A stretch of DNA of 36,590 nucleotides from Thiomonas sp. FB-6 (GTDB lineage: Bacteria > Pseudomonadota > Gammaproteobacteria > Burkholderiales > Burkholderiaceae_C), in NCBI RefSeq assembly GCF_000377645.1, contig NZ_KB898505.1, positions 1 through 36,590 on the forward strand. The letters run 5' to 3'. The notes under the pieces were generated by a model. The model searched no databases, had not been told where the DNA came from, and saw nothing but the letters and a program-made list of their open reading frames with translations. Made by a program: the position numbers and the translations under genes. The stretch's first letter is position 1; every line of letters begins with the position of its first letter. Shown one piece after another: positions 3,388-22,809 of this stretch.

Positions 3388-4545
3388 GTGAAGCATCAGA
3401 AAATTTCATCCTTGGCCGCCTCGCTGGCGGTGGCGTTCGGGGTCTTTTCCGCCAGCGCGCACGCCGCGGGCACGGTGAGGTTCGACGCCGTCGTGGAACT
3501 GTCCGGCGCCGGAGCGATCTCGGGGGGCAATTTCGATCGCGGCGCGAAGATGGCCGTCAAGGAAGTCAACGCCGCCGGCGGCCTGCTCGGCAAGACCATC
3601 GATCTGCAGAGCTACGACACGCAGAGCAACCCGGGCGTGGCCAGCGCGCTGATCCGCAAGGCGGCCGACGACAAGGCCTACGTGGTGCTGGGCCCCGGCT
3701 TCTCCGGTTCGGTGATCATCGCCGAGAAGCAGGCGCAGATCGCGCGGATTCCCGACCTGGTCGGCGCCGAGGCGAACAACATCACCCAGCAGCACAACCC
3801 CTACATCTTCCGGACCTCGCTGGACCAGGCCCAGTCGATGCCTTCGGTGGCGCAGTTCATGGTGCATGACCTGCACGCGAAGAAGGTGGCGCTGGTCTGG
3901 GTGAACAACGACTTCGGCAAGGATGGCCGAGACAGCATCCGCGACAACCTGAAGAAACTCGGCGCCGACATCGTCACCGACATCCCCGTGGAGCAGGGGC
4001 AGGTGGACTTCACCAGTTCCATCCTGAAGGTGAAGAACTCCAAGCCCGATGCCCTGTTCCTGTACCTCAACGAGGGCGGCGACGCGCGTTTCCTGGTGCA
4101 GGTGCGCAAGTTCGGATTCGACAAGCCGATCGTCGGACAGTCCTCGCTGGCCAACCCCTCGGTGATCGAACTGGCCAAGACGGCTGCCGACGGCGTGTAC
4201 TGCCAGGTCGGCCTGACCACGGCGGACAAGTCGCCGCTGATGCAGAAATTCATCTCCGACTACGAGAGCGCCTACAACGAGGTACCCGATCAGAACAGCT
4301 TCAAGGGTTATATCGCGGTGCAGACCGTGGTTGCCGCGACCAAGAAGCTCGGGAAATTCGATTCGCAAGCGCTGGCCGACGAATTGCACAAGGCCAAGCT
4401 GAACGTCAAGCAGGATCCCGGCGTGCTGCTGGACCTGAGCTACGAGCCGAATGGGAATATTCTGCGCAAGAGCTATATCGTCAAGGTCGAGAATGGCAAG
4501 CAGATTGTTGTGAAGGAATTTCCGGCCTCGGCTGCGAAGGGTTGA
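3388..4545 (+). CDS. ABC transporter substrate-binding protein, branched-chain amino acid (Leu/Ile/Val) receptor family
   Basis: Periplasmic receptor for an ABC importer, 385 residues, periplasmic-binding-protein type I fold. It begins with a Sec signal peptide (MKHQKISSLAASLAVAFG, cleavage likely after the SAHAA near residues 26-27). The mature part shows LivJ-family features: FDAVVELSGAGAISGGNFDRGAKMA, a KEVNAAGGLLGKTIDL segment, and VWVNNDFGKDGRDSIRDNLK in the second lobe. The start is GTG at 3388 with GGGAG six bases upstream. It stands alone, with no permease beside it, but the LivH/LivMGF importer about 14 kb downstream could be its partner. A strong terminator follows the stop. Such receptors often bind aromatic or organic acids rather than amino acids in Burkholderiales, so the ligand is unknown. 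Confidence 0.9.
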   Translation: MKHQKISSLAASLAVAFGVFSASAHAAGTVRFDAVVELSGAGAISGGNFDRGAKMAVKEVNAAGGLLGKTIDLQSYDTQSNPGVASALIRKAADDKAYVVLGPGFSGSVIIAEKQAQIARIPDLVGAEANNITQQHNPYIFRTSLDQAQSMPSVAQFMVHDLHAKKVALVWVNNDFGKDGRDSIRDNLKKLGADIVTDIPVEQGQVDFTSSILKVKNSKPDALFLYLNEGGDARFLVQVRKFGFDKPIVGQSSLANPSVIELAKTAADGVYCQVGLTTADKSPLMQKFISDYESAYNEVPDQNSFKGYIAVQTVVAATKKLGKFDSQALADELHKAKLNVKQDPGVLLDLSYEPNGNILRKSYIVKVENGKQIVVKEFPASAAKG

Positions 4546-4572
4546 TGTAAAGGCCCTGGAAATGCCTTGAAG

Positions 4573-4602
4573 CGGCCGCCGGGTTACCCCGGCGGCCGTT
4601 TT
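4573..4602 (+). terminator. Rho-independent terminator after the receptor gene
   Basis: An 11-bp perfect GC-rich stem (4573-4583 paired with 4588-4598) with a TTAC loop is followed by TTTT. It lies 28 bp after the receptor stop and separates it from the convergent LysR gene ending at 4636. Confidence 0.85.
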
Positions 4603-4635
4603 CACGAATGATTATGAAATCGAGATGGAACAGTT

Positions 4636-5565
4636 TCAGGCTGCGTGAAGGTGCAGGCTTTCGTCCACGGAAAACAAATGCGCGGCGCGCTGCAGGTGGG
4701 CCATGAAACATCGGATCGACGGCGCCTTCATCGCGTCGGCCCTGAGCACGGCGCCGATTCTCACCGAAAGTTCCGGGAGATCCAGCGCGAGGGCCTGCAC
4801 GGTGCCGTCGGCGAGGGCCTGCCCCAGCAATTCGGCGGGAACCAGTCCCACGTAACCCGCGTGCAGCACCAGGCTCAGCAGGGCCAGACTCGAATTCACC
4901 GCGACATCCGGCGGCTCGGCGTGGATTCCGGCGGCCTCGTACAGCTTCCTGGCGCAGCCGCCGTCTCCCGCCGCGCCCAGATGGACCCAGTTGGCGTCCA
5001 CGAGTTCACCCAAGCCGCAGGCGCGGGTATGGGCGCCGCCGCGGCGCGCCACGACGGCCATGCCCGAGCTCATCAGGCGGTGCGCCTGGAATTCGCCGTC
5101 GCCCAGTTGCGCGGGAAGACTCGCGACGGCGATGTCGGCGTCACCGCTGCGCAGCGCCTCCAGCTGTTCCAGGAAGCAGGCTTCGGTGATGCGCAGGCGG
5201 ATGCCGGGGAACTCGGCCGCGAAACTGCGCAATGCCTGCGGGACCAGGCGCGACAGTCCAGCCGCGCAGGCACTGATGCGGAGCTCTCCGCGCATGACGC
5301 CGCCGAGCTGGGCGATCTGCTGTCGCGCCTGCACGATCTCGGTGTGCACGCGCCGCGCATGTTCGAGCAGCAGGCGTCCCTGCTCGGTGGGGATCACTCC
5401 GCGTGCGTTGCGCACCAGAAGCGGAGCGGCCAGTTCGAATTCCAGATCCTTGATCATCTTGGTCAGCGCCGGCTGCGAATAGCCCAGGCGCTTGCCGGCG
5501 CTGCGCAGGCTGCCGTCCTCGATGGCGGCCACGAAGGCTTGCAGGGCATGGAGCTTCAAGGACAT
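4636..5565 (-). CDS. LysR-family transcriptional regulator
   Basis: 309-residue LysR-type regulator. The N-terminal winged helix-turn-helix (about residues 1-65) reads MSLKLHALQAFVAAIEDGSL, then the recognition helix region SAGKRLGYSQPALTKMIKDLE and PTEQGRLLLEHARR. The C-terminal periplasmic-binding-like co-inducer domain starts near GELRISACAAGLSRLVPQAL. The ATG at 5565 is chosen because it gives the standard LysR N-terminus; longer upstream frames overlap the neighbouring gene. It lies 26 bp downstream of the GlcG-like gene on the same strand and converges with the receptor gene at 3388, so it may control that receptor and/or the surrounding catabolic genes. The co-inducer is unknown. Confidence 0.93.
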   Translation of the reverse strand: MSLKLHALQAFVAAIEDGSLRSAGKRLGYSQPALTKMIKDLEFELAAPLLVRNARGVIPTEQGRLLLEHARRVHTEIVQARQQIAQLGGVMRGELRISACAAGLSRLVPQALRSFAAEFPGIRLRITEACFLEQLEALRSGDADIAVASLPAQLGDGEFQAHRLMSSGMAVVARRGGAHTRACGLGELVDANWVHLGAAGDGGCARKLYEAAGIHAEPPDVAVNSSLALLSLVLHAGYVGLVPAELLGQALADGTVQALALDLPELSVRIGAVLRADAMKAPSIRCFMAHLQRAAHLFSVDESLHLHAA

Positions 5566-5591: not shown

Positions 5592-6011
5592 TCAGGCCTC
5601 GAGCGCGCGGGCACCGGCCTGCGCGACCTGGGTGTCCTGCTCCGACGTGGCGCCCGACACCCCGATGCCCCCGACCAGCTTGCCGTCGCGCAGCAAGGGC
5701 AGGCCGCCCTCGAACAGGCAGATGCCGGTGGCGGACAGCAAGCGCAGCGCCATGCCGCCCTGGGTGATGGCTTCCTCGAAGACCTTGGTCGGGCGCTTGA
5801 AGTGGGTGGCCGTCCTGGCCTTGGCCTGCGCCAGGTCCAGGCTGGCGTACTGGGCGTGGTCCATCTTGTGCAGCACAACCGGGTGTCCCGTGCTGTCGTA
5901 CACCGCGATGACCATGGCCCATTCATTGCGCTGGGCCTCGGCGAAGGCCGCGTCGGCGACCCGCCGCGCTTCGGCGAGGGTGATCGGGGTTCCGTATTCC
6001 AGAATGGGCAT
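5592..6011 (-). CDS. GlcG/HbpS-like heme-degradation-domain protein (DUF336 family)
   Basis: 139-residue member of the GlcG/HbpS family, small proteins common in glycolate, diol and aromatic catabolic operons; HbpS itself binds haem in Streptomyces. Visible family features are the N-terminal LAEARRVADAAFAEAQ helix, the AVYDSTGHPVVLHKMDHA strand-turn with the DLAQAKARTA segment, the GGLPLLRDGKLVGGIGVSGA motif and a closing QDTQVAQAGARALE helix. Length is typical. The ATG is at 6011. A strong hairpin (6083-6113) lies between this gene and the AroE-like gene upstream, so it may be only partly co-transcribed with it. The exact biochemical role is unknown; cofactor or metabolite binding is the usual suggestion. 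Confidence 0.88.
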   Translation of the reverse strand: MPILEYGTPITLAEARRVADAAFAEAQRNEWAMVIAVYDSTGHPVVLHKMDHAQYASLDLAQAKARTATHFKRPTKVFEEAITQGGMALRLLSATGICLFEGGLPLLRDGKLVGGIGVSGATSEQDTQVAQAGARALEA

Positions 6012-6150: not shown

Positions 6151-6984
6151 TCAATAGCGAAGTTGCGCGGTCTCCCGGATCTCATCGGAACTCGCGCTTG
6201 GAAAGCCGAAGAATTCGAGGTAGGCGGGGATCATCTCGAACAGCATGTCCAGGCCGGTCTGGATCGGGCAACCTCGTTCGCGCGCCGCGGCAAGCAGCGG
6301 GGTGATCTCGCGCTTCATGACCACGTCCGCGACCAGACTGGTCGGCGCGAGTCGGCTGGGGTCGAAGGCCAGCGGATCCTCGTCACGCATGCCCAGCGGG
6401 GTCGCGTTGCAGACCAGATCGAATCCATCGGGATCGTTCGTCCCCAGGCGCAGACGCAGTTGCGGGAAATGCTCGCGCAGCCGCCCCGCCAGACGGTCGC
6501 GGCCTTCGGTGTCGATGTCGAACAACTGCAGTTCGTCCACGCCGGCTTGCGCGAGGCTGGCGGCGATCGCCGAGCCGACGCCGCCGCAGCCCGACACCAG
6601 CGCGCGCAGACCCGGCAGCTTCAAGCCCTTGCGCTGCAGCGCGCGCACGAATCCGATGCCGTCGAATTGGTCCGCGGCAAGTTGTCCGTCGGGCAGGCGC
6701 ACCACCGCATTGCAGGCGCCGGCGATGCGGGCCCCGAGCGAATGCGTGTCCACTCGCTGCATCGCCGCCGCCTTGAAGGGCATGGTGACAAGGGCGCCGC
6801 GCAGATTGGAAAGACGCATGATCGCGTCGAAGCCGGCGTCGAAATGTTCCGGCCGCACGCCCATGGGGACGACGACAGCCGGGATGCCCTTGCGGGCGAA
6901 CCAGGGGTTGTAGAGCATCGGCGCGCGGAACGATTCCGTGGGGTGGCCGATGTGTGCGATCAGTTGGGTCTTGCCGTCAATCAA
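6151..6984 (-). CDS. Shikimate-dehydrogenase-like oxidoreductase (divergent AroE family)
   Basis: 277-residue NAD(P)-dependent dehydrogenase of the AroE/YdiB fold. The catalytic lysine (K71 in LVTMPFKAAAM), the asparagine of GACNAV (N92) and the catalytic aspartate of FDGIGF (D108) are in place, as is the nucleotide-binding glycine motif GCGGVG (132-137). However, the two serines of the canonical SxS motif that hold the shikimate carboxylate are replaced: in HIGHPTESFRAPMLYN the aligned positions are F19 and A21. It therefore probably does not serve the shikimate pathway but oxidises or reduces another hydroxy or oxo ring acid. The start is a TTG at 6984 with only a weak GCGAGA ribosome site, chosen because it gives the family N-terminus. 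Its position among catabolic genes supports a degradative role. Confidence 0.85.
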   Translation of the reverse strand: MIDGKTQLIAHIGHPTESFRAPMLYNPWFARKGIPAVVVPMGVRPEHFDAGFDAIMRLSNLRGALVTMPFKAAAMQRVDTHSLGARIAGACNAVVRLPDGQLAADQFDGIGFVRALQRKGLKLPGLRALVSGCGGVGSAIAASLAQAGVDELQLFDIDTEGRDRLAGRLREHFPQLRLRLGTNDPDGFDLVCNATPLGMRDEDPLAFDPSRLAPTSLVADVVMKREITPLLAAARERGCPIQTGLDMLFEMIPAYLEFFGFPSASSDEIRETAQLRY

Positions 6985-7363: not shown

Positions 7364-8158
7364 TTAGTCGAAGGCCCACGCGCCCAGGCAGGTGGGGCCG
7401 ACGCGGCCCCTCCACAGACGGCGCGCGCCGGACTCCGAGCCCGCGCCGCTGGCCACCATGAGCGGCAGCAGATGCTCCTCGCGGGGATGCGAGGCCCTGC
7501 CGCCCGGTGCATCGTGCCAGAGCGACAGGCGTGCGCGGCGCTGTTCCTGGCCGCCGGCGAGGGCTTCGTCCAGCCAGTCATGAAAGGCGAAGGAATCGGC
7601 GGCGTGGGCCTCGAAGTGCATCAGGTTGTGATAGCTCATGCCGGCTCCGATCACGAGGACGCCTTCGTCGCGCAACGGGCGCAGCGCCCGCCCGAAATCG
7701 CAGTGCAGGCCGGGTTCCAGACCGCGCTGCAGGGACATGGCCACCACAGGAATATCGGCCTCGGGAAACATCACCTTGAGCGGAATGAACACGCCGTGGT
7801 CCCAGCCGCGCTCGGGGTCCACGCGCGCGGCGTGGCCTGCCTCGCTCAGCAGCGCGCAGGCGCGTTGCGCCAGCGCCGGCGCGCCCGGGGCGTCGTACCG
7901 AAGCCGGTAGGTCTCGGGCGGGAAGCCGCTGTAGTCGTAGATCAGTCCAGGACGCGCGCCTCCCGTGAAGGCCGGCACTTCGGTCTCCCAGTGCGCACTC
8001 ACCTGCAGGATGGCCCGCGGAGGCGTTGCGAGCAGGGTGTGCACGCCGCGCAGAAAATCCTCGGTTGCCTGGTAGCGCTGCTTGCGCGGGCCGCTCATGA
8101 AGAACGACGGACCGCCGCCGTGGGGAAGGTACAGCGAAGGCATGCGCGCGGCGCTCAT
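7364..8158 (-). CDS. DODA-type (LigB-superfamily) extradiol ring-cleavage dioxygenase
   Basis: 264-residue member of the class III extradiol dioxygenase superfamily (LigB, DOPA 4,5-dioxygenase, YgiD). These are non-haem metal enzymes that open catechol-type rings. Numbering from the GTG at 8161, conserved histidines lie in the early LYLPHGGGPS (H14), SAHWE (H57), RGWDHGVFIPL (H122), GMSYHNLMHF (H178) and SHPREEHLLPLMVA (H225/H230); several of these are the expected metal or catalytic ligands. The ATG at 8158 is preferred over the adjacent GTG at 8161 because GGGAG then sits 6 bases upstream. The gene is 58 bp downstream of a LysR gene on the same strand. In this context it could cleave an aromatic intermediate of the locus; the substrate is unknown. 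Confidence 0.88.
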   Translation of the reverse strand: MSAARMPSLYLPHGGGPSFFMSGPRKQRYQATEDFLRGVHTLLATPPRAILQVSAHWETEVPAFTGGARPGLIYDYSGFPPETYRLRYDAPGAPALAQRACALLSEAGHAARVDPERGWDHGVFIPLKVMFPEADIPVVAMSLQRGLEPGLHCDFGRALRPLRDEGVLVIGAGMSYHNLMHFEAHAADSFAFHDWLDEALAGGQEQRRARLSLWHDAPGGRASHPREEHLLPLMVASGAGSESGARRLWRGRVGPTCLGAWAFD

Positions 8159-8216
8159 CACGGGCTCCCGGAAACAAAGTGCGCGCAGTCTACTGGCAGG
8201 TGCGCCGGCGTGCGAG

Positions 8217-9200
8217 CTAGCCGAAGCCCGGTAGGACGGAGTCTTCCAGCATGTCGGGGTCCTCGTGCAGCACGATGCCGCGCCAGGTTCCCTCGGCGGC
8301 CAGGCCGCGCACCAGTTCGCGCAAATGCTCGCGCACCGCGTGGGCGGCCGGCGAGAGCTTGTCCGGGGGTTGCGCGTAGAGGTAGTTCTTGCGCACGATC
8401 GGATGGTCGGAGATCTCCACGCAGCGCCAACCGTGGCTGCTCGCGGGGCGCGCGAACAGTGCCGACACCGGCTGGATGCTCAGGCCGATGTCGCGCTCCA
8501 CGCAGTTCATGAGCAGCGACAGCGAATCGATCTCCGCCACCGGCTGCAGGGGCACGCCGCCATGCTCGAATTCCATGGCCAGGCGCCTGCGCAGGCCATG
8601 CGCAGCCGTGGGCAGGATCAGCGGCAGCTCGGCTACCTCGCGCAGGCTCAGGGCCTGCACGTGTGAGGGGATGCGCGAGCAGCAGCCGGCCGATGCGATC
8701 ACGAACAACTGCTCGTCCAGCAACGGCTCGGACACCAGTTCGATCGCCGGCAGCTTGCGGAACAGCACCGCGATGTCGAACTGCCCGGCGCGGGCCAGCT
8801 GCTCGAGGTGTCCGCTCATGCCCTCGATGATGTTGAGCAGGATGCCCGGGTGGGTGCCGCGAATTCGTTCGAGCAAGGGCAGACCGAGGGCTCCCAGGGT
8901 GGTGGGCGCCAGCCCGACGCAGACCTGCCCGGTGAGTTGCGAGACTTCCTGGCGCGCGATCGCCTTGGTCTGGTTGAACTGGCGCAGCAGGAAGATGGCA
9001 TGGTTGTACAGCGCCTGCCCGTGCGAGGTCGGCCACACGCCGCGCGCGGTGCGGTTGAGCAGCTTGCGCCCGATCTCGTCCTCCAGCTTGGCCAGTTGCT
9101 GGCTCAGGCTGGGCTGCGACACATACAGCGTCTGCGAGGCCTTCGCGAGGCTGCCGCTTTCGACGATCTGCACGAAATAGCGCAACTGACGCATTTCCAT
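8217..9200 (-). CDS. LysR-family regulator (NAC/Cbl-like), divergent from the tcu-like operon
   Basis: 327-residue LysR-type regulator. The N-terminal helix-turn-helix reads MEMRQLRYFVQIVESGSL, followed by KASQTLYVSQPSLSQQLAKLE, the FVxIVESGSLAKAS pattern typical of the NAC-like subgroup. The effector domain begins near GQVCVGLAPTTLGALGLPLL. The C-terminus (about 25 residues after AHAVREHLRELVRG) is slightly longer than usual. It is transcribed away from the tcuA-like gene at 9345 across 144 bp that contain a T-N11-A palindrome, the classical arrangement for a LysR activator and its target. It also precedes the DODA and AroE-like genes on its own strand, so it may govern both arms of the locus. 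Confidence 0.94.
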   Translation of the reverse strand: MEMRQLRYFVQIVESGSLAKASQTLYVSQPSLSQQLAKLEDEIGRKLLNRTARGVWPTSHGQALYNHAIFLLRQFNQTKAIARQEVSQLTGQVCVGLAPTTLGALGLPLLERIRGTHPGILLNIIEGMSGHLEQLARAGQFDIAVLFRKLPAIELVSEPLLDEQLFVIASAGCCSRIPSHVQALSLREVAELPLILPTAAHGLRRRLAMEFEHGGVPLQPVAEIDSLSLLMNCVERDIGLSIQPVSALFARPASSHGWRCVEISDHPIVRKNYLYAQPPDKLSPAAHAVREHLRELVRGLAAEGTWRGIVLHEDPDMLEDSVLPGFG

Positions 9201-9264: not shown

Positions 9265-9285
9265 GCAATAGGCCGCTCCTATAGC
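9265..9285. promoter_or_regulatory. Candidate LysR operator (T-N11-A palindrome)
   Basis: ATAGG (9268-9272) and CCTAT (9278-9282) form a perfect inverted repeat with a 5-bp spacer and fit the LysR box T-N11-A (T9269, A9281). With one mismatch the symmetry extends to GCAATAGG/CCTATAGC (9265-9285). It lies between the divergent LysR gene (start 9200) and the tcuA-like gene (start 9345), about 60 bp from each, where a LysR recognition site is expected. Confidence 0.65.
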
Positions 9286-9344: not shown

Positions 9345-10823
9345 ATGCAAGTCAGCTCCACGCATCACCAGGCCGCAGCGTCGGCGAAGTCTCCGGCATT
9401 CGCGGACTCGCAGGAAATTCCCGACGTGCTGGTCATCGGCGGAGGTAACGCCGCGCTGTGCGCCGCCATCAGCGCTCGCGAGCAGGGTGCGTCCGTGCTG
9501 CTGCTGGAGGCGGCGCCGCAGGAATTGCGTGGAGGCAACAGCGCCCATACCCGCAATCTGCGTTGCATGCACGGTGCGCCCACGCTGACATTGACCGAGG
9601 CCTACGGCGAGGACGAGTACTGGGAGGACCTGCTGCGCGTCACCGGCGGGCAGACCGACGAAGACCTGGCGCGCATGGCCATCCGCGGCTCCGCGCAGGC
9701 CCTGCCGTGGATGACGCGCCAGGGCGTGCGCTTCCAGGCCTCGCTGACCGGAACCCTGCAGCTCTCGCGCACCAACGCCTTTTTCCTGGGCGGCGGCAAG
9801 GCCCTGCTCAACACCTACTACCGCCGCGCCCGCGAGCTCGGCGTGCGCATCCGATACACGGCACGGGTCGACGAGCTGCACATCGGGGGCGGGCGATTCG
9901 AGGCGGCGACCGTGGAAGTCGGAGGACGCGTCGAACGCCAGCTGGCACGCAGCGTCGTGCTGGCGGCGGGCGGCTTCGAGTCCAACCTGCACTGGCTCCG
10001 GGATGCGTGGGGAGATGCCGCGGGCAATTTCCGCATCCGCGGCAGCGCGTTCAACCAGGGTGCCGTGCTGCGCCAGGTCATCGACGCGGGCGCCGTTGCC
10101 GTGGGCGACCCCAGTCAATGCCACGCGGTGGCGATCGACGCACGTGCACCGCGATACGACGGTGGCATCGTCACTCGGGTGGATGCTGTCTCGCTGGGCA
10201 TCGTCGTGAACAAGATGGCGCAGCGCTTCTACGACGAGGGCGAGGACTTCTGGCCCAAGCGCTATGCGATCTGGGGAAGATTGGTGGCGCGCGAGCCCGA
10301 CCAGATCGCCTATTCGATCGTCGACGCCAAGGCGATCGGGCGCTTCATCCCGCCTGTCTTCCCTCCGTTGAGCGCGTCCAGCGTGCACGAGCTTGCCGGC
10401 TTGCTGGGTCTGGACCCGCAGGCCCTGCAGGGCACCGTCGACGGCTTCAACGCCAGCGTGTGTCCGGGGCGCTTCGACCACACCGTGCTCGACGATTGCC
10501 GCACCGAAGGGCTCGTGCCCCCGAAGTCTCACTGGGCCGTCGCGCTGGATACGCCCCCCTATTACGCCTACCCGCTGTGCCCGGGAATCACCTTCACCTA
10601 TCTGGGTGTGAAGGTCGACGCGTCGGCGCGAGTCCAGTTCGAGCACGCGCCGGCCGGCAATGTGTTCTGCGCGGGCGAGATGATGGCCGGAAACATTCTG
10701 GGCAAGGGCTACCTGGCGGGCATCGGCATGACCATCGGGACTGTGTTCGGGCGCATCGCCGGCAGCGCCGCGGCGCAACAGGCCCTGGCCGCGCGACGCG
10801 CCGTGGGCATGCGGAATTCCTGA
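9345..10823 (+). CDS. tcuA: FAD-dependent dehydrogenase, tricarballylate dehydrogenase TcuA-like
   Basis: 492-residue flavoprotein of the fumarate reductase/succinate dehydrogenase family, closest in layout to TcuA, which oxidises tricarballylate to cis-aconitate. The N-terminal FAD site is DVLVIGGGNAALCAAISARE, followed by an acidic strand end (LLLEAAP) and the GGNSAHTRN segment typical of TcuA/CobZ. Later motifs include VLAAGGFESN and the C-terminal GNVFCAGEMMAGNILGKGYL FAD-contact region. About 25 residues precede the FAD motif; the ATG at 9345 is retained. The gene is followed 3 bp later by the TcuB-like electron-transfer partner, so electrons would pass from FADH2 through TcuB to the membrane. 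The substrate here may differ from tricarballylate, because the operon also carries a ThDP enzyme and an aldehyde dehydrogenase. Confidence 0.88.
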   Translation: MQVSSTHHQAAASAKSPAFADSQEIPDVLVIGGGNAALCAAISAREQGASVLLLEAAPQELRGGNSAHTRNLRCMHGAPTLTLTEAYGEDEYWEDLLRVTGGQTDEDLARMAIRGSAQALPWMTRQGVRFQASLTGTLQLSRTNAFFLGGGKALLNTYYRRARELGVRIRYTARVDELHIGGGRFEAATVEVGGRVERQLARSVVLAAGGFESNLHWLRDAWGDAAGNFRIRGSAFNQGAVLRQVIDAGAVAVGDPSQCHAVAIDARAPRYDGGIVTRVDAVSLGIVVNKMAQRFYDEGEDFWPKRYAIWGRLVAREPDQIAYSIVDAKAIGRFIPPVFPPLSASSVHELAGLLGLDPQALQGTVDGFNASVCPGRFDHTVLDDCRTEGLVPPKSHWAVALDTPPYYAYPLCPGITFTYLGVKVDASARVQFEHAPAGNVFCAGEMMAGNILGKGYLAGIGMTIGTVFGRIAGSAAAQQALAARRAVGMRNS

Positions 10824-10826
10824 GAC

Positions 10827-11978
10827 ATGAACGCACCGATTCGCATCGACATCCAGCCCGCTACCCCGCAGCTTCCGCTTGCCGACGCGCAACAGGAGAC
10901 CCGGCGGGTGGTCGACATCTGCAATGCCTGCCGCTATTGCGAGGGCTTCTGCGCCGTGTTCCCGGCCATCGAGCGGCGCCTGGATTTCAGCTCCGGCGAC
11001 CTGCAGCACCTGGCCAACCTGTGCCACAACTGCGGCGCGTGCCTGTACGCCTGCCAGTACGCGAGCCCGCACCCCTTCGAGGTCAACGTGCCGCGGTCGC
11101 TGGCGCGGCTTCGCGGGCACAGCTACGAACACTTCGCCTGGCCGGCGGCGTGGGCCGGCTTGTTGCGCAGGCAGGCGCCGTGGACTTTCGCCGCACTCTC
11201 CTTAGGACTGGGTGTGTTCCTGTTGCTGGGCACGCTGCACGGCGGCTGGCCGGCCGCGGGCAGCGCGGACTTCTACGCTGTGGTTCCGCACGACTGGCTG
11301 GCCGCGCTGTTCGGGGTGCTGGCGCTGTGGATCCTGCTCAGCATGGGCATGGGCCTGCGCGCCTACTGGCGCTTCATCGGCGGGCGGATTCCGGCGGGGC
11401 AGGGGGCGCCGGCGGCCGCAAGCGCGGCGGCCGACGCGCTCAGCCTGCGCTACCTGGACGGAGGCGGTGGCGGCTGCCACGACACCGACGATGAGCCCTC
11501 CGGCGCGCGCCGGCTGCTGCACCATCTGCTGGCCTATGGCTTCGCCATGTGCTTCGCGGCGACCTGCGTGGCGACCTTCGAGGCCTACGGGCTGGGGCGC
11601 GCTGCGCCCTACGCCTGGAACAGCCTTCCGGTCGGGCTGGGGTTCTCCGGGGGTGTGATGCAACTCGCAGGGGCGGGCGGCCTGCTGCGCCTGCGTCTTT
11701 TGCGCAACCCCCAGCAGGGCGACCCCGCGCAGCGGCCGATGGACCTGTGCTTCCTGGCCCTGCTGCTGGCGACCAGCGCCAGCGGGCTGATCCTGCTGGG
11801 TGCGCGCTCCACGCCGGCGATGGCGCCGCTGTTGTGCCTCCACCTGGGAATCGTCGCGGCCCTGTTCCTGAGCCTGCCCTACGGCAAGTTCGTGCATGCC
11901 GGGTACCGCGTGCTGTCCCTGTTCCGCGACGCGCTCGAGCGCCGCCGCGCCCCGGGGCCGGCGCTGGGCGGGGATTGA
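10827..11978 (+). CDS. tcuB: TcuB-like membrane iron-sulfur electron-transfer protein
   Basis: 383-residue partner of TcuA that reoxidises its flavin and passes electrons to the respiratory chain. Two ferredoxin-type [4Fe-4S] motifs lie near the N-terminus, C-x2-C-x2-C-x3-C at C32/C35/C38/C42 (CNACRYCEGFC) and C66/C69/C72/C76 (CHNCGACLYAC), each followed by the family's hydrophobic and proline-containing context. Downstream are about six hydrophobic segments, with histidines that could ligate haem as in TcuB-type cytochromes. A glycine-rich, low-complexity loop (GGGGGCHDTDDE) lies mid-protein. The start at 10827 is 3 bp after tcuA, indicating translational coupling. The next gene, the aldehyde dehydrogenase, follows after 42 bp. 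Confidence 0.88.
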   Translation: MNAPIRIDIQPATPQLPLADAQQETRRVVDICNACRYCEGFCAVFPAIERRLDFSSGDLQHLANLCHNCGACLYACQYASPHPFEVNVPRSLARLRGHSYEHFAWPAAWAGLLRRQAPWTFAALSLGLGVFLLLGTLHGGWPAAGSADFYAVVPHDWLAALFGVLALWILLSMGMGLRAYWRFIGGRIPAGQGAPAAASAAADALSLRYLDGGGGGCHDTDDEPSGARRLLHHLLAYGFAMCFAATCVATFEAYGLGRAAPYAWNSLPVGLGFSGGVMQLAGAGGLLRLRLLRNPQQGDPAQRPMDLCFLALLLATSASGLILLGARSTPAMAPLLCLHLGIVAALFLSLPYGKFVHAGYRVLSLFRDALERRRAPGPALGGD

Positions 11979-12020
11979 AGCGTCCGCGCTGGCTGGCGGC
12001 TCCGACACGACGACACGACC

Positions 12021-15248: not shown

Positions 15249-15262
15249 CCCGCGCCGCACGG

Positions 15263-16792: not shown

Positions 16793-16793
16793 C

Positions 16794-16810
16794 GGGGACC
16801 CTCGGTCCCC
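16794..16810 (+). repeat. Hairpin between the FAD enzyme and the receptor gene
   Basis: GGGGACC-CTC-GGTCCCC forms a 7-bp perfect stem immediately after the stop codon at 16792. No T-run follows. It may act as an mRNA-processing or stability element letting the downstream receptor be made in excess, as often seen for periplasmic binding proteins; this role is inferred. Confidence 0.4.
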
Positions 16811-16841
16811 CATGCATACAACGATTCCAAGAGGAGACAAC

Positions 16842-18116
16842 ATGAACCAAGCAAGCGGAATTCGATTCGTCCCCGTCATCGGGCGGCTGCCGGCGGTGCG
16901 CAGACTCATTCACGCGGCCTGCGCCTGCGCCTGCGCGGGCGCGGCAGCGCTGCCGGGGCTGGCGAACGCTCAGGATGCCTCGGTCATCCACATCGGCATG
17001 ATCTACGCCAAGGAAGGCCCCGCCGCGATCCTGGCGAAGAATCTGGTCGAAGGCAGCGAGCTGGCGCTGGCGCAGGCCGGCGGCAAGGTGCTGGGCCGTC
17101 CCGTCAAGCTGATCTGGCTGGACGAGCAGACGCCCCAGGACGCGGTGCAGAACACCCAGAAACTGATCCAGCAGTACAAGGTCGTGGCATTCATGGGCGG
17201 GACCATCAGCTCCAACGCCATCGGCATGGCCGCGGTGGCCGCGCGGGACAAGGTTCCCTACATCGCGACCAATGCGGCGGTGGCCTCGATCACCGGCAAC
17301 ACCTGCAACCGCTACACCTTCCGCACCCAGCCCTCCGTGCCGGTGCAGGTGGACATGCTGCTGCCTTACCTGAAGACCCTGGGCGACAAGTGGTACTTCC
17401 TGACCCCCTCCTACGCCTTCGGCCAGGACATTGTCAAGGCGGCTCGCGCCAAGATGAAGGAACTGGGCGCCACCGAGGTCGGCAGCGATCAGGTGCCCTT
17501 CAATACCGCGGACTACACCTCCTACATCCTGAAGGTCCGTCAAGCGCAGCCCTCGCTGGTATTCGGCGGCCTGGTCGGCGGCGACCTGTCGAATTTCCTG
17601 AAGCAGTGGTCGGCCATGGGCATGAAGAGCTCGATTCCCTATACGGCCGTTGCCGTCAGCGACAGCGACTTCTGGGACGTGGGGCCCCAGGCCGCAACGG
17701 GCATCTATGTCAACCCCTGGTACTACAAGGATCCGAACAATTCGGCGCAGTCCAGGGAGTTCGTCAAGGCTTTCATCGCCAAGTACAAGACGCCCCCCAC
17801 CGACAAGGCCTGGCAGGGCTGGATCAGCACCATGGCTCTGCTGCAGTCCATCCAGTCCGCGGGGTCGACCTCGCCGGCGGCGATCGTGGCTGCGCTGGAG
17901 CACTGGAAGGATGACAACGGCGCCGGCAACGGTGCGTACTTCCGGCCCTGGGACCACCAGATGATCCACCAGGCGGTCATCTTCCGCGTCAAGTCGCACA
18001 TCACCGGCAAGTACGACTACTTCGACGTGCTGCAGCGCGCGCCGAAGTCGCTTCAGGCCGCGGATGCCGCCTACGGCACGCCGGCGCAGGTCGGCTGCCA
18101 CATGGGTCCGCTCTGA
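16842..18116 (+). CDS. ABC transporter substrate-binding protein of the Liv family
   Basis: 424-residue periplasmic receptor for the adjacent LivH/LivMGF importer. The long Sec signal peptide contains RRLIHAACACACAGAAALPG and likely cleaves after ANA (residue 43). The mature domain starts DASVIHIGMIYAKEGPAAIL, with IQQYKVVAFMGGTISSNAIG in lobe one and FLTPSYAFGQDIVKAARAKM in lobe two, as in receptors for aromatic and dicarboxylic acids. The ATG at 16842 is fixed by an excellent ribosome site, GAGGAG (16831-16836), five bases upstream; it is the strongest in this operon. The permease follows 19 bp after the stop. Its C-terminal part (HWKDDNGAGNGAYFRPWDHQ) is typical of the family. Confidence 0.92.
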   Translation: MNQASGIRFVPVIGRLPAVRRLIHAACACACAGAAALPGLANAQDASVIHIGMIYAKEGPAAILAKNLVEGSELALAQAGGKVLGRPVKLIWLDEQTPQDAVQNTQKLIQQYKVVAFMGGTISSNAIGMAAVAARDKVPYIATNAAVASITGNTCNRYTFRTQPSVPVQVDMLLPYLKTLGDKWYFLTPSYAFGQDIVKAARAKMKELGATEVGSDQVPFNTADYTSYILKVRQAQPSLVFGGLVGGDLSNFLKQWSAMGMKSSIPYTAVAVSDSDFWDVGPQAATGIYVNPWYYKDPNNSAQSREFVKAFIAKYKTPPTDKAWQGWISTMALLQSIQSAGSTSPAAIVAALEHWKDDNGAGNGAYFRPWDHQMIHQAVIFRVKSHITGKYDYFDVLQRAPKSLQAADAAYGTPAQVGCHMGPL

Positions 18117-18135
18117 GCCCCGCGCAGGCCGCCCC

Positions 18136-19005
18136 ATGCTGGGACTCCTCTTGTCGCAGGCCGCCAACGGCCTGACCCTGGGTGTCGTGTACGTGCTGAT
18201 CGCGATCGGGCTTTCGATCACCTTCGGGCTGCTCGGCGTGATCAACTTCGCGCATGGGGCGTTCTTCGCCCTCGGCGCGTACGTCGCGTACGCGCTGCAG
18301 GGCTGGTGGGGCGTGCAGGCTGTCTGGCTCGCGCCGCTGCTGGTGGCCGCGGGGGGCATGGTGCTGGAGCGCCTGCTCCTGCGCCATCTGTACCAGCGCA
18401 ACCCGCTGACCAGCCTCATCGTGACCTTCGCGCTGGCGCTGTTCATCGAGGCCCTGATCCGCCGCGTGTGGGGGCCGGCGGGGGTCCCGTTCAACACGCC
18501 CGACGCGTTGCAGGGCGTGTTGGTCTACGGCCCCTTCCTGATCACGACCTACCGGCTCGCGGTGGTGGCCTGCACCCTGCTGCTGCTGTGCGGCCTGTGG
18601 CTGTTCCTGAGCTTCACCCCCTACGGCCGCATCCTGCGCGCCGGCAGCCGGGACGCGGAAATGGTCGAAGCGCTGGGCATCCGCCTGCAGAACGCGCAGA
18701 CCGGCGCCTTCGGGCTGGGCTGCGGCCTGGCGGCGGTGGCCGGCGTGCTGGCCGCGCCGCTGTGGTCGGTCAGCCCCTCGATGGGCAGCGAGGCCATCAT
18801 GCCCGCCTTCGTGGTCATCACGATCGGCGGGCTGGGGTCGCTGCGCGGCTCCATCGTCTCGGGGGTGCTGGTGGGGGTGGTGACCGCGCTGACCATCCAG
18901 TTCGCGCCCGCCGCCGCCGGCGCGGCGATGTACGTGCTGATGCTTTTCGTCACCCTGGCGCGCCCGCGGGGACTGTTCGGCGAACGCTGGGAGCGCTTCG
19001 AATGA
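18136..19005 (+). CDS. livH: LivH-type ABC permease
   Basis: 289-residue inner-membrane permease of the branched-chain-amino-acid importer family. It starts MLGLLLSQAANGLTLGVVYV, has about eight hydrophobic helices and the LivH landmarks LLGVINFAHGAFFALGAYV and FVVITIGGLGSLRGSIVSG. The ATG at 18136 is chosen over longer frames because it gives the canonical N-terminus and begins just after the receptor stop; its ribosome site is weak. Its TGA overlaps the ATG of the next gene (ATGA at 19002-19005), indicating tight translational coupling with the LivM-LivG-LivF fusion. With that protein and the receptor it forms a complete importer. Confidence 0.92.
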   Translation: MLGLLLSQAANGLTLGVVYVLIAIGLSITFGLLGVINFAHGAFFALGAYVAYALQGWWGVQAVWLAPLLVAAGGMVLERLLLRHLYQRNPLTSLIVTFALALFIEALIRRVWGPAGVPFNTPDALQGVLVYGPFLITTYRLAVVACTLLLLCGLWLFLSFTPYGRILRAGSRDAEMVEALGIRLQNAQTGAFGLGCGLAAVAGVLAAPLWSVSPSMGSEAIMPAFVVITIGGLGSLRGSIVSGVLVGVVTALTIQFAPAAAGAAMYVLMLFVTLARPRGLFGERWERFE

Positions 19006-21602
19006 GCCCGCGTGAGGCATTGCGCCATCCGGCGCTGCTGGTCGGCCTCGTGCTGGCCTTGATGGCCGCGGGCGTGCGCTTCGCCGGCATGCCCGTCGAC
19101 GTCGTCACGCAGATCGCGGTCTACACGCTGTACGGCCTGGGAGTGAATTTCCTCATCGGCTACCTGGGGCTGGTGCCCTTCGGCGCGTCCTTGTACTTCG
19201 GCGTGGCCAGCTACGCGGTGGCCATCGGCATGAGCCATTTCGGAGGCAACGAGGCCGTGGCCTTCGCCGGGTCGGTCGCGTTCACGACCCTGCTCGCGGT
19301 GCTCAGCGGGTTCGTGATCCTGCGCCGGCGAGGGGTGTACTTCTCCCTGCTCACGCTGGCCTGTTCCCAGCTGGCCTTCGAGATCGCCTACCGCTGGACG
19401 GATTTCACCGGGGGCGAGAACGGGCTGCAGATCGCCAGCCGCCCCTACTTCGAGTCGGCGAGGGGCTTTGCCGCGTTGGTCATCGCCGGGGTGGTGGTGG
19501 CCTGCGCGGTGCTGTGGACCATCGCGCATTCATCGTTCGGGCGGCGCATGCAGGCCGTGCGGGACAACGAGCGGCGCGCGGGCTGCCTGGGCATCGACGT
19601 GTTCCAGGTCAAGCTGTGGGCCTTCACCATCGCCGGAGCCACGATCGGCGTGGCCGGTTCCGGCATGGCGCTGCTGCTGCGCGGCGCCTACGCCAATCCA
19701 CTGAGCTGGCAGCAGGCCGGCGATGCGGTGCTGATGGTGGCGCTGGGTGGAGTCGAGCACTTCCTTGGCGCGCTGTGGGGGGCCATCGCCTTCATCGTGC
19801 TGGAGAACAAGCTCAGCGCGTGGAGCGAGAACTGGTGGCTGTACTTCGCGCCGATCATCATCGTGCTCGCCTTCGTCAACCCCGGCGGAATCCACGGCCT
19901 GCTGCGGCGCATGCGCGGCCGCGCTGGACGCACCCTGGCGCGCGAGGAGGTGCCGCCGGCGCCGGCGGCTGTCGAGGCCTACGCACCCGCGCAGCGCGGG
20001 CAGGAGGCCGCCGCGGACGACACCCCGGTTCTCGAGGTGCGGGGGCTGAGCAAGCGCTTCGGCTCGATAGTGACCCAGAACGCCATCGACCTGTGCGTGG
20101 CGCCTCGGGGCGTGCACAGCGTGATCGGCCCGAACGGCGCGGGCAAGACCACGTTGTTCAACCTGCTGACCGGGCTGCTGGAGCCGGACGCTGGCAGCAT
20201 CCGCCTGCGGGGCCGGGAACTCGCCGGGGTTCCCGCGCACCGGCGCACGCGCCTGGGCCTGAGCCGTTCCTTCCAGATCGTCTCCGTGTTCCACAGCCTG
20301 ACGGTGTTCGAGAACGTACGCGTGGCGGTCGAGGCGGCCGCGGGCGGCGCGGCCTCCCTGCTCCGGGACCCCTACCGCGACCCCGGCGGACACCCGCGGG
20401 TCTGGCAGCTGCTGGGCGCGGTGGGCCTGGCCGAGCGCGCATCGAGGCGCTGCGACGACCTGTCGCACGGGGAGAAGCGCCTGCTGGACATCGCCATGTC
20501 GCTGGCCGCGGACGCGCCGCTGCTCCTGCTCGACGAACCCCTGGCGGGTCTTTCCGAGAGCGATCGGGAGCTGGTCGGCGGGATCATCCGGAGCATCGCC
20601 CGCACACGCGCGGTTCTGCTCATCGAGCACGACATCGACCGCGTGCTGGCCCTGTCCGATCGCATCACGGTCCTGCACATGGGGCGGGTGATCGCCGACG
20701 GCCCCCCCTCGGAGGTGGCCGCGCACGAAGCCGTGCGCGAGGCCTACCTCGGGGCGCGGCGCCCCGGACAGCCGGCGCCGGCGCGCGAGGAGCGCCCGGC
20801 CGCGCCGGAGGACGCGCGCGAACTGCTGCGCTGCCGCGGCCTCAGTGCCGGCTATGGCGGCAGCCTGGCCATCCGGGACATCGATTTCGAGGTGCGCACG
20901 GGCGAGATCGTGGCGCTGCTCGGGCGCAACGGCGTGGGCAAGTCCACGCTGCTCAAGACCCTGATGGGCATGCTGCGTCATGCGGACGGTCAACTCAGCC
21001 TGGACGGGCGCGACATCGGGCGCAAGCCCTCCTTCCTGCGGCGCCGCCTGGGCATCGCGCTGGTTCCCGAAGGCCGGCGCCTGTTCCCCAACCTGACGGT
21101 GGCCGAGAACCTGCGCCTGGCCCAGCGTCCGGGAGGCGCGCGCTTCGCGGAGGTGTGCGCGCTGTTCCCGAAAATTGCCGTGCTGGCCCGGGCGAAGGCC
21201 GAGAACCTCTCCGGCGGCGAACGCCAGATGGTGGCGATCGCCCGCGCGCTCATGGCGCCCAACAAGGTGATCCTGCTCGACGAGCCCTTCGAGGGCCTGG
21301 CCCCCGTGGTGGTGGCCGAGGTGAAGGCGGCGGTTCTCAAGCTGCGCGAGTTCGCCAGCGTCGTGATCGTCGAGCACAACGCCGAGGAAGCGCTGGAACT
21401 GGCCGATCGCGCCTACGTGCTGGTCAGCGGACGCGTGGCCTTCTCGGGCTCGGCGCGGCAACTGGAACAGGACCACGAGTTGCAGGAACGCCTGCTGGGC
21501 ATTCATGGCGAGGACACGGCGGCCGGGCAGGCTCCGGCGGCTCGATCCGGTGCCGATCGAATTCATGGAGAACACGATGGACATCCCCAAGCATCACGAT
21601 GA
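19002..21602 (+). CDS. Triple fusion LivM permease - LivG ATPase - LivF ATPase
   Basis: 866-residue single polypeptide that carries three normally separate Liv importer subunits. Residues 1 to about 305 form the LivM permease (several helices; YGLGVNFLIGYLGLVPFGA, GIDVFQVKLWAFTIAGA). A hydrophilic linker of about 35 residues leads to the LivG-like ATPase from residue 343, with Walker A GPNGAGKT (376-383), signature LSHGE (about 487-491) and Walker B LLLLDEP. A second linker, rich in Pro/Ala/Glu (GQPAPAREERPAAPED), joins the LivF-like ATPase, with Walker A GRNGVGKS (641-648), signature LSGGE (736-740) and Walker B VILLDEP (756-762). Both ATPases keep their key residues. The last 25 or so residues run past the usual LivF end (QERLLGIHG) and overlap the cupin gene. 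The ATG overlaps the livH stop. Confidence 0.92.
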   Translation: MSPREALRHPALLVGLVLALMAAGVRFAGMPVDVVTQIAVYTLYGLGVNFLIGYLGLVPFGASLYFGVASYAVAIGMSHFGGNEAVAFAGSVAFTTLLAVLSGFVILRRRGVYFSLLTLACSQLAFEIAYRWTDFTGGENGLQIASRPYFESARGFAALVIAGVVVACAVLWTIAHSSFGRRMQAVRDNERRAGCLGIDVFQVKLWAFTIAGATIGVAGSGMALLLRGAYANPLSWQQAGDAVLMVALGGVEHFLGALWGAIAFIVLENKLSAWSENWWLYFAPIIIVLAFVNPGGIHGLLRRMRGRAGRTLAREEVPPAPAAVEAYAPAQRGQEAAADDTPVLEVRGLSKRFGSIVTQNAIDLCVAPRGVHSVIGPNGAGKTTLFNLLTGLLEPDAGSIRLRGRELAGVPAHRRTRLGLSRSFQIVSVFHSLTVFENVRVAVEAAAGGAASLLRDPYRDPGGHPRVWQLLGAVGLAERASRRCDDLSHGEKRLLDIAMSLAADAPLLLLDEPLAGLSESDRELVGGIIRSIARTRAVLLIEHDIDRVLALSDRITVLHMGRVIADGPPSEVAAHEAVREAYLGARRPGQPAPAREERPAAPEDARELLRCRGLSAGYGGSLAIRDIDFEVRTGEIVALLGRNGVGKSTLLKTLMGMLRHADGQLSLDGRDIGRKPSFLRRRLGIALVPEGRRLFPNLTVAENLRLAQRPGGARFAEVCALFPKIAVLARAKAENLSGGERQMVAIARALMAPNKVILLDEPFEGLAPVVVAEVKAAVLKLREFASVVIVEHNAEEALELADRAYVLVSGRVAFSGSARQLEQDHELQERLLGIHGEDTAAGQAPAARSGADRIHGEHDGHPQASR

Positions 21603-21969
21603 ACAGGCGCCCCGCAAGGCGGCGATCCGGCGGGCGGACGCCTTGCTGTGGAAACAATTCCCCGGGCATTTCGGCCAGGCGCTCTCGAAGGAAATCGTCT
21701 CCCGCGAGACCCTGGGCAGCGAGCATCTGGACTACCGGCTGTCCTGCTACGAGCCGGGCGCCTACGTGGCCCGTCACAGCCATCGCCGGCAGGAGCAGAT
21801 CTACCACATCCTGCGCGGCCGGGGACTGGTGATCCTGGACGGCCGGGAGACCCCCGTCGGGCCCGACGACGTGATCTTCATCCCTCCCTTCGTCGAGCAC
21901 GAGTTGCACTGCACCGGCACCGACGAACTGGTGCTGCTGGTGATCACCAGCCCGCAGAGCGACGATTGA
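21577..21969 (+). CDS. Small cupin-domain protein
   Basis: 130-residue single-domain cupin. The metal-site motif is visible as RHSHRRQEQIYHILRGRGLV (two histidines and a glutamate/glutamine cluster), and the second motif as IFIPPFVEHELHCTG with a histidine. Such proteins act as metal-dependent isomerases, dioxygenases or sugar/acid binders; the specific role is not clear. The ATG at 21577 is preferred, with TGGAG six bases upstream; an in-frame ATG at 21565 would add four residues. The first 26 bases overlap the end of the LivMGF fusion in another frame, indicating co-translation. The SDR gene follows after 96 bp. Confidence 0.82.
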   Translation: MDIPKHHDEQAPRKAAIRRADALLWKQFPGHFGQALSKEIVSRETLGSEHLDYRLSCYEPGAYVARHSHRRQEQIYHILRGRGLVILDGRETPVGPDDVIFIPPFVEHELHCTGTDELVLLVITSPQSDD

Positions 21970-22065
21970 CACCCGCGCGGCCGCAGTGCCGCGTTCCATC
22001 CCGGGGACCCCACCGCGCTCGCGGGCCGGGCCCCGTCCTGTCCGAATCATCCTGGAGTTCCGGAA

Positions 22066-22809
22066 ATGCCCAACAACATTGCCATCGTGTTCGGTGGTTC
22101 GCGCGGAATCGGCCGAGCCTGCGTCGACGCGCTCGTGCGCGACGGCTTCGACGTCGCGCTGACCTACGTCTCCAGCGCCGAGGCCGCGCAACAGACCTGC
22201 ACGGCCGCGTCCGCGCTGCGTGCCGGCGCTCGCGTGCAGCCCTACGCGGTGGAGGTGCGCGATGCGCGCGCGGTGGACGCCGTGTTCGGTCAGGTCGCGC
22301 AGGATTTCGGCGCACCCATCGGCTGCGTGCTGGCCAATGCCGGGATCAACGTGCCGCCCGGGCCGCTCGCGACCTTCGACGCCGAAGCCTTCCGCCGCCT
22401 CATGGAGGTGAACCTGTTCGGCGCCTTCAACATCCTGTCGGCGGCGGCCCGGCACGTGGCCGATGCGGGCTCCATCCTGGCGCTCACCACCTCGCTGGTG
22501 CGCGTGTCGATGGCCGGCCTGGGGCCCTACAGCGCGAGCAAGGCCGCGGTGGAGGCGCTGGTGCGCGCCCTGTCGCGCGAACTGGCCGGGCGCGGCGTGC
22601 GGGTCAACGCGGTGGCCCCGGGGCCGGTGGACACCGAGCTGTTCCACGAGGGCAAGACCGAGGAGGCCAAGGCCCGCTCCGCCGCGCTCAGCCCCTTCGG
22701 CCGCATCGGACGGCCGGAGGAGGTCGCCGAGCTGGTTGCCTTCCTGGCCTCGCCGCGCGCCTCGTGGATCCACGGGCAGGTCGTGCAGGCCAACGGCGGG
22801 CTGGTCTGA
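22066..22809 (+). CDS. Short-chain dehydrogenase/reductase (FabG-like SDR)
   Basis: 247-residue classical SDR that oxidises an alcohol or reduces a ketone with NAD(P). The cofactor motif is GGSRGIG (residues 10-16), the NAG motif is NAGI (about 91-94), and the catalytic set is N116, S143, Y155 and K159 in GPYSASKAAVEAL. The C-terminal GPVDTELFHEG and WIHGQVVQANGGLV are standard. It is the last plus-strand gene of the catabolic operon and converges with dabA, whose stop is only 23 bp away. A role in the same pathway as the AroE-like and FAD enzymes is inferred from position; no substrate can be read from the sequence. Confidence 0.9.
   Translation: MPNNIAIVFGGSRGIGRACVDALVRDGFDVALTYVSSAEAAQQTCTAASALRAGARVQPYAVEVRDARAVDAVFGQVAQDFGAPIGCVLANAGINVPPGPLATFDAEAFRRLMEVNLFGAFNILSAAARHVADAGSILALTTSLVRVSMAGLGPYSASKAAVEALVRALSRELAGRGVRVNAVAPGPVDTELFHEGKTEEAKARSAALSPFGRIGRPEEVAELVAFLASPRASWIHGQVVQANGGLV

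Follow-up and report, generated by a model that had tools for sequence, protein, structure and literature searches.

What is degraded by the genes at positions 3388 to 22809 of contig NZ_KB898505.1 from Thiomonas sp. FB-6, and do these genes form one pathway? The window analysed here is that entire contig (36,590 nucleotides; C35 in our numbering), which is part of a 4.2-Mb genome assembled in 79 contigs. The interval holds a plus-strand operon, with genes for a thiamine diphosphate (ThDP) enzyme, a TcuA-TcuB pair and an importer, and a minus-strand arm with genes for an AroE-like dehydrogenase and a LigB/DODA-type dioxygenase. Comparison with other genomes reveals two separable catabolic modules, and not a single conserved pathway. 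The plus-strand operon is best read as a variant of the IolD-type ring-opening route. We propose, tentatively and with confidence somewhat short of even, that the two modules serve saturated or partly saturated ring acids, and that the plus-strand enzymes would combine IolD-like ring opening, oxidation by an aldehyde dehydrogenase (ALDH) and desaturation by TcuAB. An open-access literature search found no description of this gene cluster.

Families were assigned from open reading frame (ORF) calls and from matches to Pfam, NCBIfam and PDB chains, and 20 window proteins were scanned. In the text below, G-numbers denote comparison genomes, L-numbers comparison loci and C-numbers contigs of the Thiomonas genome itself. 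The features of the interval are as follows.

3388..4545, plus strand: PBP1, a LivK-type periplasmic binding protein of the minus-arm module (Pfam PF13458, 217.8 bits); 73-77% relatives lie near AroE-like and GlcG genes in G001, G003, G017 and G024.
4636..5565, minus strand: LysR1 regulator (Pfam HTH_1 and LysR_substrate); 52-55% relatives lie between GlcG and PBP1 in G003 and G017.
5592..6011, minus strand: HbpS/GlcG-like protein (PF03928, 126.2 bits).
6151..6984, minus strand: AroE-like protein, an atypical member of the shikimate dehydrogenase family (PF08501, 54 bits; best PDB match 4k28, 176 bits).
7364..8161, minus strand: LigB/DODA-type extradiol dioxygenase (PF02900, 94.3 bits against a cut-off of 26.3).
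8217..9200, minus strand: LysR2, the probable regulator of the plus-strand operon (Pfam; 37 of 49 non-kin loci hold it along with the ThDP gene).
9268..9282, no strand: LysR-type box ATAGG-N5-CCTAT in the divergent promoter region (conservation of the repeat arms).
9345..10823, plus strand: TcuA-family flavin adenine dinucleotide (FAD) dehydrogenase (NF006130, 697 bits, cut-off 369).
10827..11978, plus strand: TcuB-family Fe-S membrane protein (TIGR02484, 394.3 bits, cut-off 246.6).
12021..13445, plus strand: ALDH (PF00171, 440.5 bits).
13458..15248, plus strand: ThDP enzyme and proposed ring opener, with three TPP_enzyme domains and an IolD-like GHGN loop at residues 27-30 (loop and tree).
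15263..16792, plus strand: FAD2, a second FAD enzyme (FAD_binding_2) related to flavocytochrome c and ketosteroid dehydrogenase (PF00890, 150.4 bits; best PDB match flavocytochrome c3 fumarate reductase).
16842..18116, plus strand: PBP2, a LivK-type binding protein of the importer (PF13458, 262.6 bits).
18064..19005, plus strand: LivH-type permease (PF02653, 122.1 bits), whose start codon may sit further in.
19002..21602, plus strand: LivM-LivG-LivF fusion of 866 amino acids, with one PF02653 (BPD_transp_2) and two PF00005 (ABC_tran) stretches.
21565..21969, plus strand: small cupin (PF07883, 61.8 bits, scored on the ORF at 21505-21969).
22066..22809, plus strand: SDR (short-chain dehydrogenase/reductase) oxidoreductase (PF13561, 192.6 bits).

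The operon spans 13.5 kb (9345-22809) with intergenic gaps of -53 to 96 bp, and its genes run in the order TcuA, TcuB, ALDH, ThDP enzyme, FAD2, PBP2, LivH, LivM-LivG-LivF fusion, cupin and SDR. TcuA and TcuB head the operon and lie 3 and 42 bp, respectively, from the next gene. The Liv-type ABC (ATP-binding cassette) importer set is complete, with a binding protein, two permease domains and two ATPase domains, and clusters of similarly long relatives of the fusion protein cover 27 of 90 and 18 of 90 loci. The LysR-type box lies in the 144-bp divergent gap between LysR2 and TcuA, and both of its repeat arms are conserved in all five aligned sequences (the window and its kin L040-L043). The minus arm is more loosely packed, with gaps of 379 bp between the DODA and AroE-like genes and 139 bp between the AroE-like and GlcG genes, and PBP1 is oriented tail-to-tail with LysR1. 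ORF and family scans recover every family that the sequence-only reading had listed for this interval, together with its LysR box and its 13.5-kb operon. It had counted one LysR gene in the minus arm where there are two, and the LivK-type binding protein encoded by the first gene was an addition to its list.

Much of the plus-strand set travels with the ThDP gene. A profile scan of genome_contigs with an alignment of 10 ThDP proteins was evaluated for the best 80 of at least 531 confirmed loci, which are close relatives (69-94% identity). There are 51 of these with more than 8 kb of flanking sequence on both sides, and without the nearest kin (L040 and L041) they yield 49 well-flanked non-kin loci. 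At the identity set for each protein, these 49 loci contain ALDH (46), the cupin (44), LysR2 (37), the SDR (36), LivH and the LivM-LivG-LivF fusion (34), and TcuB (10). FAD2 is found in 24, a ketosteroid dehydrogenase (KSTD)-like FAD enzyme in 22, and one or the other in 41; TcuA is found in nine at 58% identity or more and in 13 at 30% or more. Nearly always (44 of the 46 loci with an ALDH) the ALDH gene is less than 200 bp from the ThDP gene. At the same thresholds, ALDH, cupin, SDR, LysR2 and FAD2 are each absent from all 26 comparison loci of related genomes, and the fusion protein reaches its threshold in seven. These 26 loci were picked around AroE, TcuA or ThDP paralogues and are not a random sample, and the counts for TcuA (4 of 26) and AroE (6 of 26) are uninformative as rates.

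The set recurs across Burkholderiales of soil and freshwater and across Alphaproteobacteria, in part on alphaproteobacterial plasmids. Hosts of the ThDP loci include Variovorax, Paraburkholderia, Hydrogenophaga, Limnohabitans, Bradyrhizobium, Tardiphaga, Methylobacterium and Azospirillum. There are 15 plasmid records that match the ThDP protein, six of them at 60-80% identity (Methylobacterium, Neorhizobium, Rhizobium, Antarctobacter, Aminobacter and Ponticoccus).

The genes of the minus arm do not share this distribution. The AroE-like protein (at least 60%), LysR1 (50%) and PBP1 (60%) are each found in none of the 49 loci, which is why the arms are read here as two modules; DODA (38%) is found in one and GlcG (42%) in eight. 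Furthermore, the sister genomes G001, G017 and G024 carry the AroE-like, GlcG and PBP1 genes on a stretch shared with a different ThDP locus, whose ThDP gene is 11-16 kb away. The sequence-only reading had placed both arms in one pathway and had named scattering of the genes in other genomes as the outcome that would argue against this. The plus-strand set largely stays together and the minus-arm genes mostly travel apart; this outcome is thus seen in part, and one pathway is not supported as the main reading. The individual functions it had proposed (import, oxidation, desaturation, C-C cleavage and aldehyde oxidation) are consistent with the recurring gene set, and catabolism of an alicyclic or aromatic acid stays the best reading of the interval.

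The sequence-only reading had assigned ring or C-C cleavage to either the DODA or the ThDP enzyme. The latter stands as the conserved C-C cleaving candidate, and the DODA enzyme is not needed for ring cleavage by the plus-strand set. Database records label the ThDP enzyme acetolactate synthase or thiamine pyrophosphate-binding protein, and none of the best 25 NCBIfam cut-offs listed is reached. IolD hydrolytically opens a trihydroxycyclohexane-1,2-dione, and similarity to IolD in the substrate loop makes the window enzyme a candidate for a related reaction. Residues 27-30 read GHGN and are identical in the two IolD proteins of the same genome, which are encoded elsewhere (867 and 819 bits, cut-off 715). 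A ThDP paralogue on contig C36, 39% identical to the window enzyme, has GHTN. All 22 rows of the core (window-type), C36 and IolD groups carry GH[GT]N and none of five others does (IlvB, Xsc, Gcl, Oxc and the unassigned ThDP protein of L132); it is because the GHGN loop is common to IolD and absent from these five that the IolD-type reading is proposed. Among 80 clustered orthologues, 76 match the pattern FGxCGHGN and four are off pattern. In a maximum-likelihood tree of 27 rows, which carries long-branch warnings, support of 94/93 sets the core, C36 and IolD groups apart from the remaining five. In addition, the directly adjoining ALDH gene fits the aldehyde-acid product that an IolD-like opening would give.

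The window TcuA passes both NCBIfam cut-offs (NF006130, 697 against 369; TIGR02485, 598.4 against 372.55), and TcuB passes one of two (TIGR02484, 394.3 against 246.6; NF011607, 447.6 against 524). A search of 149 genomes found the ThDP protein at E <= 1e-150 in 13, of which 11, the Thiomonas genome included, have it at 61% identity or more. A gene above the NF006130 cut-off is located within 8 kb of the ThDP gene on the same contig in 10 of these 11 carriers. Of the 11, five are the window genome and its close kin. The ThDP contig of the eleventh (G074) is just 3,235 bases long. There is no TcuA gene near the ThDP gene in the two carriers at about 50% identity (G094 and G143), and TcuA exceeds its cut-off in 52 of the 149 genomes. 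Among the 49 loci, TcuA at 58% or more is near the ThDP gene in nine, against about 0.14 expected as computed among the matches listed. Because adjacency is observed so far above the expected count, TcuAB is a preferred, non-obligatory partner of the ThDP gene. A second TcuA-TcuB pair is present on contig C9 (106034-107416), and its TcuA scores higher than the window copy (758 bits), which makes a plain tricarballylate operon an unlikely description of the window genes. As a separate matter, G143, from the same order, has ten TcuA-family matches in a single genome.

We infer the following route, including its substrate, the order of its steps and its regulation, from this gene content. The Liv-type importer would take in a polyhydroxylated alicyclic compound, either cyclitol-like or hydroaromatic, into which the SDR and FAD2 might introduce a carbonyl group or unsaturation. 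The ThDP enzyme would then act like IolD and break the bond between two adjacent ring carbons that bear oxygen, giving an open-chain aldehyde acid, and the adjoining ALDH would oxidise this aldehyde. If a carboxylated 1,2-dione ring is opened in this way, oxidation of the aldehyde would yield a tricarboxylate: cyclopentane-1,2-dione-4-carboxylate would give tricarballylate itself and a six-membered ring carboxylate its C7 homologue. TcuAB could desaturate such a tricarballylate-like compound to an aconitate-like one for entry into the citric acid cycle, with TcuB, the Fe-S protein, relaying electrons to the quinone pool. The cupin may be an isomerase, and LysR2 probably controls the operon. 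If the ring-opening reading is true, the carrier genomes would encode a way to degrade alicyclic acids without passing through aromatic intermediates.

Known systems resemble parts of this operon. Like myo-inositol catabolism (Iol), it combines the GHGN loop with cupin and ALDH genes, and some other ThDP loci add a TIM-barrel protein and an IolG-like dehydrogenase. Unlike Iol, the window operon adds FAD enzymes and TcuAB and has no TIM barrel, and its ThDP enzyme scores under the IolD cut-off. The tricarballylate utilisation proteins TcuA and TcuB are matched at the cut-offs given above, but the window pair shares its 10-gene operon with genes for a ThDP enzyme and for a Liv importer. Cyclohexane-1,2-dione hydrolase (PDB 2pgn) belongs to the same ThDP family and its type of reaction would match, but it is far down the list of matches, at just 169 bits. 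The HKA synthase BbmA (PDB 8x3x) is the best match in both sequence and fold, but has IPGGP in its substrate loop (PGGP at the site of residues 27-30) where the window enzyme reads VCGHG.

Several observations weigh against the ring-opening reading. The top NCBIfam score of the ThDP enzyme is to the acetolactate synthase model TIGR00118 (374.5 bits, below the cut-off of 538.35), and the IolD model TIGR04377 fails at 257.7-258.4 bits against 715. BbmA is the closest PDB chain (278-281 bits) and is named first by the fold search, at 28-29% identity, followed by acetohydroxyacid synthases; cyclohexane-1,2-dione hydrolase is not among the 50 fold matches listed. The AF2 model, which served for the fold search only, is of moderate confidence, having a mean predicted local distance difference test (pLDDT) score of 74, with residues 78-86, 106-133 and 429-431 below 50. 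In the tree, IolD joins the core group at 85/77 on a long branch. Among the 49 loci, 13 are without the SDR and 25 without FAD2, and TcuA is missing from 40 at the 58% threshold and from 36 at the 30% threshold. Finally, the TIM-barrel proteins found outside C36 prove not to be specifically IolE- or IolI-like, and the one in L046 matches neither IolE nor IolI specifically and has no informative PDB relative. As to IolD itself, no PDB chain matched the protein from contig C1 at E <= 1e-40.

The first alternative makes the ThDP enzyme a benzoylformate-type 2-oxo-acid decarboxylase, whose aldehyde product would be oxidised by the ALDH as in mandelate catabolism, with no ring opening. The adjacency of the ThDP and ALDH genes suits this equally well, and the fold, for which HKA synthase and acetohydroxyacid synthases are the top matches, is common to decarboxylases. 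However, the loop agrees with IolD and not with the other ThDP enzymes compared, and the 20 scanned window proteins (genes left of 3388 and right of 29292 being outside the scan) include no mandelate-type dehydrogenase or racemase. The company of TcuAB, cupin and TIM-barrel genes would also be left unexplained. We consider a decarboxylase unlikely.

A second alternative arises from the genes that accompany other ThDP loci. Annotated plasmid regions and family scans show AP_endonuc_2 TIM barrels and NAD-dependent epimerase-type proteins in some of them, and some have a Gfo/Idh/MocA protein for which IolG is the top NCBIfam match, at 87 bits and so under the cut-off of 355. The Antarctobacter plasmid has a type II 3-dehydroquinase beside the cupin, scoring below dehydroquinase cut-offs, and dehydroquinase relatives are also present in L033 and L034. 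Some loci add a KSTD-like FAD enzyme, a thiolase, an acyl-CoA dehydrogenase, an enoyl-CoA hydratase or an ADP-forming CoA (coenzyme A) ligase. Among 90 clustered loci, an RbsB-like binding protein occurs in 28 and a TctC receptor in 37, each family having been assigned from one representative. What these loci share, on our reading, is that a polyhydroxylated ring would be oxidised, desaturated and cleaved by the ThDP enzyme, with oxidation of the aldehyde, while the finishing steps vary. A conjugative plasmid, pUSP3 of Aminobacter sp. MSH1 (L123), encodes two such ThDP enzymes at one locus together with IolG-like and TIM-barrel genes.

Perhaps, then, the plus-strand operon degrades an uncarboxylated cyclitol or a sugar-derived ring by a true inositol-like route, and TcuAB is a loose passenger for free tricarballylate. 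The IolG-like, TIM-barrel and RbsB-like partners, the loci without TcuA at 58% or more (40 of 49) and the higher-scoring TcuA of the second pair on C9 are in keeping with this. Against it stand the 10 of 11 genomes in which a TcuA-family gene is at most 8 kb away from the ThDP gene, and the position of TcuA and TcuB at the head of the operon, almost abutting the genes that follow. This alternative, too, appears unlikely, and opening of a carboxylated ring is preferred for the plus strand.

The minus arm most likely belongs with quinate- or shikimate-type catabolism. Its AroE-like protein is below every shikimate dehydrogenase cut-off listed (for TIGR00507, 134.6 against 200.2). It retains the catalytic Lys and Asp, and the first Ser of the substrate pocket is Phe in all eight members compared (the window protein and seven orthologues); the second substrate Ser is Ala in the window protein. 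The match to PDB 4k28, which we take to be RifI2 of Pseudomonas putida, stands out at 176 bits, with the next chain at 90. The DODA enzyme has seven His residues (14, 57, 122, 153, 178, 225 and 230) that are invariant across 11 sequences, and scores 131.7 bits against NF007914, under the cut-off of 233.

The ThDP locus near which the sister genomes place this module has its equivalent on contig C36. This locus (L039, which is C36:1-20000, and L194) contains genes for shikimate dehydrogenase, citryl-CoA lyase, two ALDHs, type I dehydroquinase, a porin, the ThDP enzyme, a CoA-transferase and EamA, and further for a TIM barrel with IolI as best PDB match, IclR, an AroE-like protein and Liv proteins. 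On C36, the shikimate dehydrogenase, citryl-CoA lyase and type I dehydroquinase are above curated cut-offs, and a QuiC-N-like gene starts at 20542. In G001 and G003, the neighbourhood of the AroE-like gene includes genes for a TIM barrel and an HPPD-like protein. The two G001 proteins align to the full-length QuiC model, the first over positions 5-269 (127.9 bits) and the second over 284-484 (84.6 bits). Neither half would be expected to attain the model's cut-off of 1200, and the second protein matches 4HPPD slightly better (88.1 bits, cut-off 277). QuiC1 and QsuB are described as two-domain proteins (PMC7442255). We read the pair as a putative split QuiC, resembling 3-dehydroshikimate dehydratase. 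Because kin place the module near this pair and near the locus with dehydroquinase, shikimate dehydrogenase and ThDP genes, the AroE-family dehydrogenase, with GlcG, LysR1 and the binding protein, would take part in quinate- or shikimate-like catabolism. The match to 4k28 and the neighbouring split QuiC-like pair recall QuiC-based quinate catabolism, but the window itself holds no QuiC-like gene and the pocket Ser of the AroE-like protein is replaced.

Gene co-occurrence points the same way. QuiC-like matches span 100 genomes, 19 of which also have an AroE-like match (at least 42%). The two genes are within 12 kb of each other in nine of the 19, farther apart on one contig in three, and on separate contigs in seven, including the Thiomonas genome, where the QuiC-like copy is outside the window on C36. 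Among 28 genomes of the genus, AroE-like is found in nine, QuiC-like in 10, the C36 ThDP gene in nine and the core ThDP gene in five. With relatedness uncorrected, AroE-like co-occurs with QuiC-like in 9 of 9 (Fisher p 1.4e-6), with C36 ThDP in 8 of 9 (p 2.5e-5) and with core ThDP in 4 of 9 (p 0.026). The minus arm of G004 is interrupted by a contig end, with a DODA fragment visible. A classical route from QuiC through protocatechuate with meta cleavage is possible, since LigA is over its cut-off in the Thiomonas genome; no match to the beta subunit of protocatechuate 3,4-dioxygenase was found there. The LigB-type dioxygenase may cleave an aromatic product of the minus-arm route.

A more speculative possibility, which we regard as quite unlikely, is that quinate- or shikimate-type acids are broken down in IolD-like fashion without an aromatic ring or oxygen, and are finished by TcuAB in this operon or by CoA-transferase and citryl-CoA lyase at C36. 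The ThDP enzymes would split the oxidised ring where two adjoining carbons bear oxygen, and the carboxylate at C1 would make the open chain a citrate- or tricarballylate-like tricarboxylate. A quinate-type ring that kept its tertiary hydroxyl would give a citrate homologue. The presence of TcuAB at one locus and of CoA-transferase with citryl-CoA lyase at the other would then follow from the products, tricarballylate-like in one case and citrate-like in the other. Physiological work by Brune and Schink in the 1990s reportedly concerned fermentation of hydroaromatic acids without aromatic intermediates, and if this possibility is true the operon would be a gene basis for such catabolism.

The last alternative is a joint pathway in which the AroE-like enzyme makes a ketone that is cleaved by the ThDP enzyme, with DODA as an accessory. 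In its favour, the arms have a divergent promoter region in common, both occur in all three kin contigs whose length allows both to be seen (L040, L041 and L043), the C36 locus is present in 5 of 5 core-ThDP genomes of the genus (p 0.0013), and GlcG relatives of at least 42% are found in 8 of 49 non-kin core loci. Even so, it is very unlikely and is ruled out as a leading interpretation by the sister-genome linkage, the 49-locus counts (no AroE-like gene) and the closer tracking of AroE-like with QuiC-like and C36 ThDP than with core ThDP.

Apart from these two modules, a DODA gene is also found within the ThDP locus L114. In G147, a genome with no ThDP match at E <= 1e-150, a LigB/DODA gene is about 1.7 kb from a TcuA-family gene (contig C51, L173). 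Elsewhere in the window, genes for a DabA and DabB inorganic-carbon transporter occupy the minus strand at 22833-27037, with the end of DabA 23 bp from the end of the SDR gene. At 29299-31347 the translations suggest a formaldehyde gene pair, AdhC-like and FghA-like, located after a CPA2 antiporter gene.

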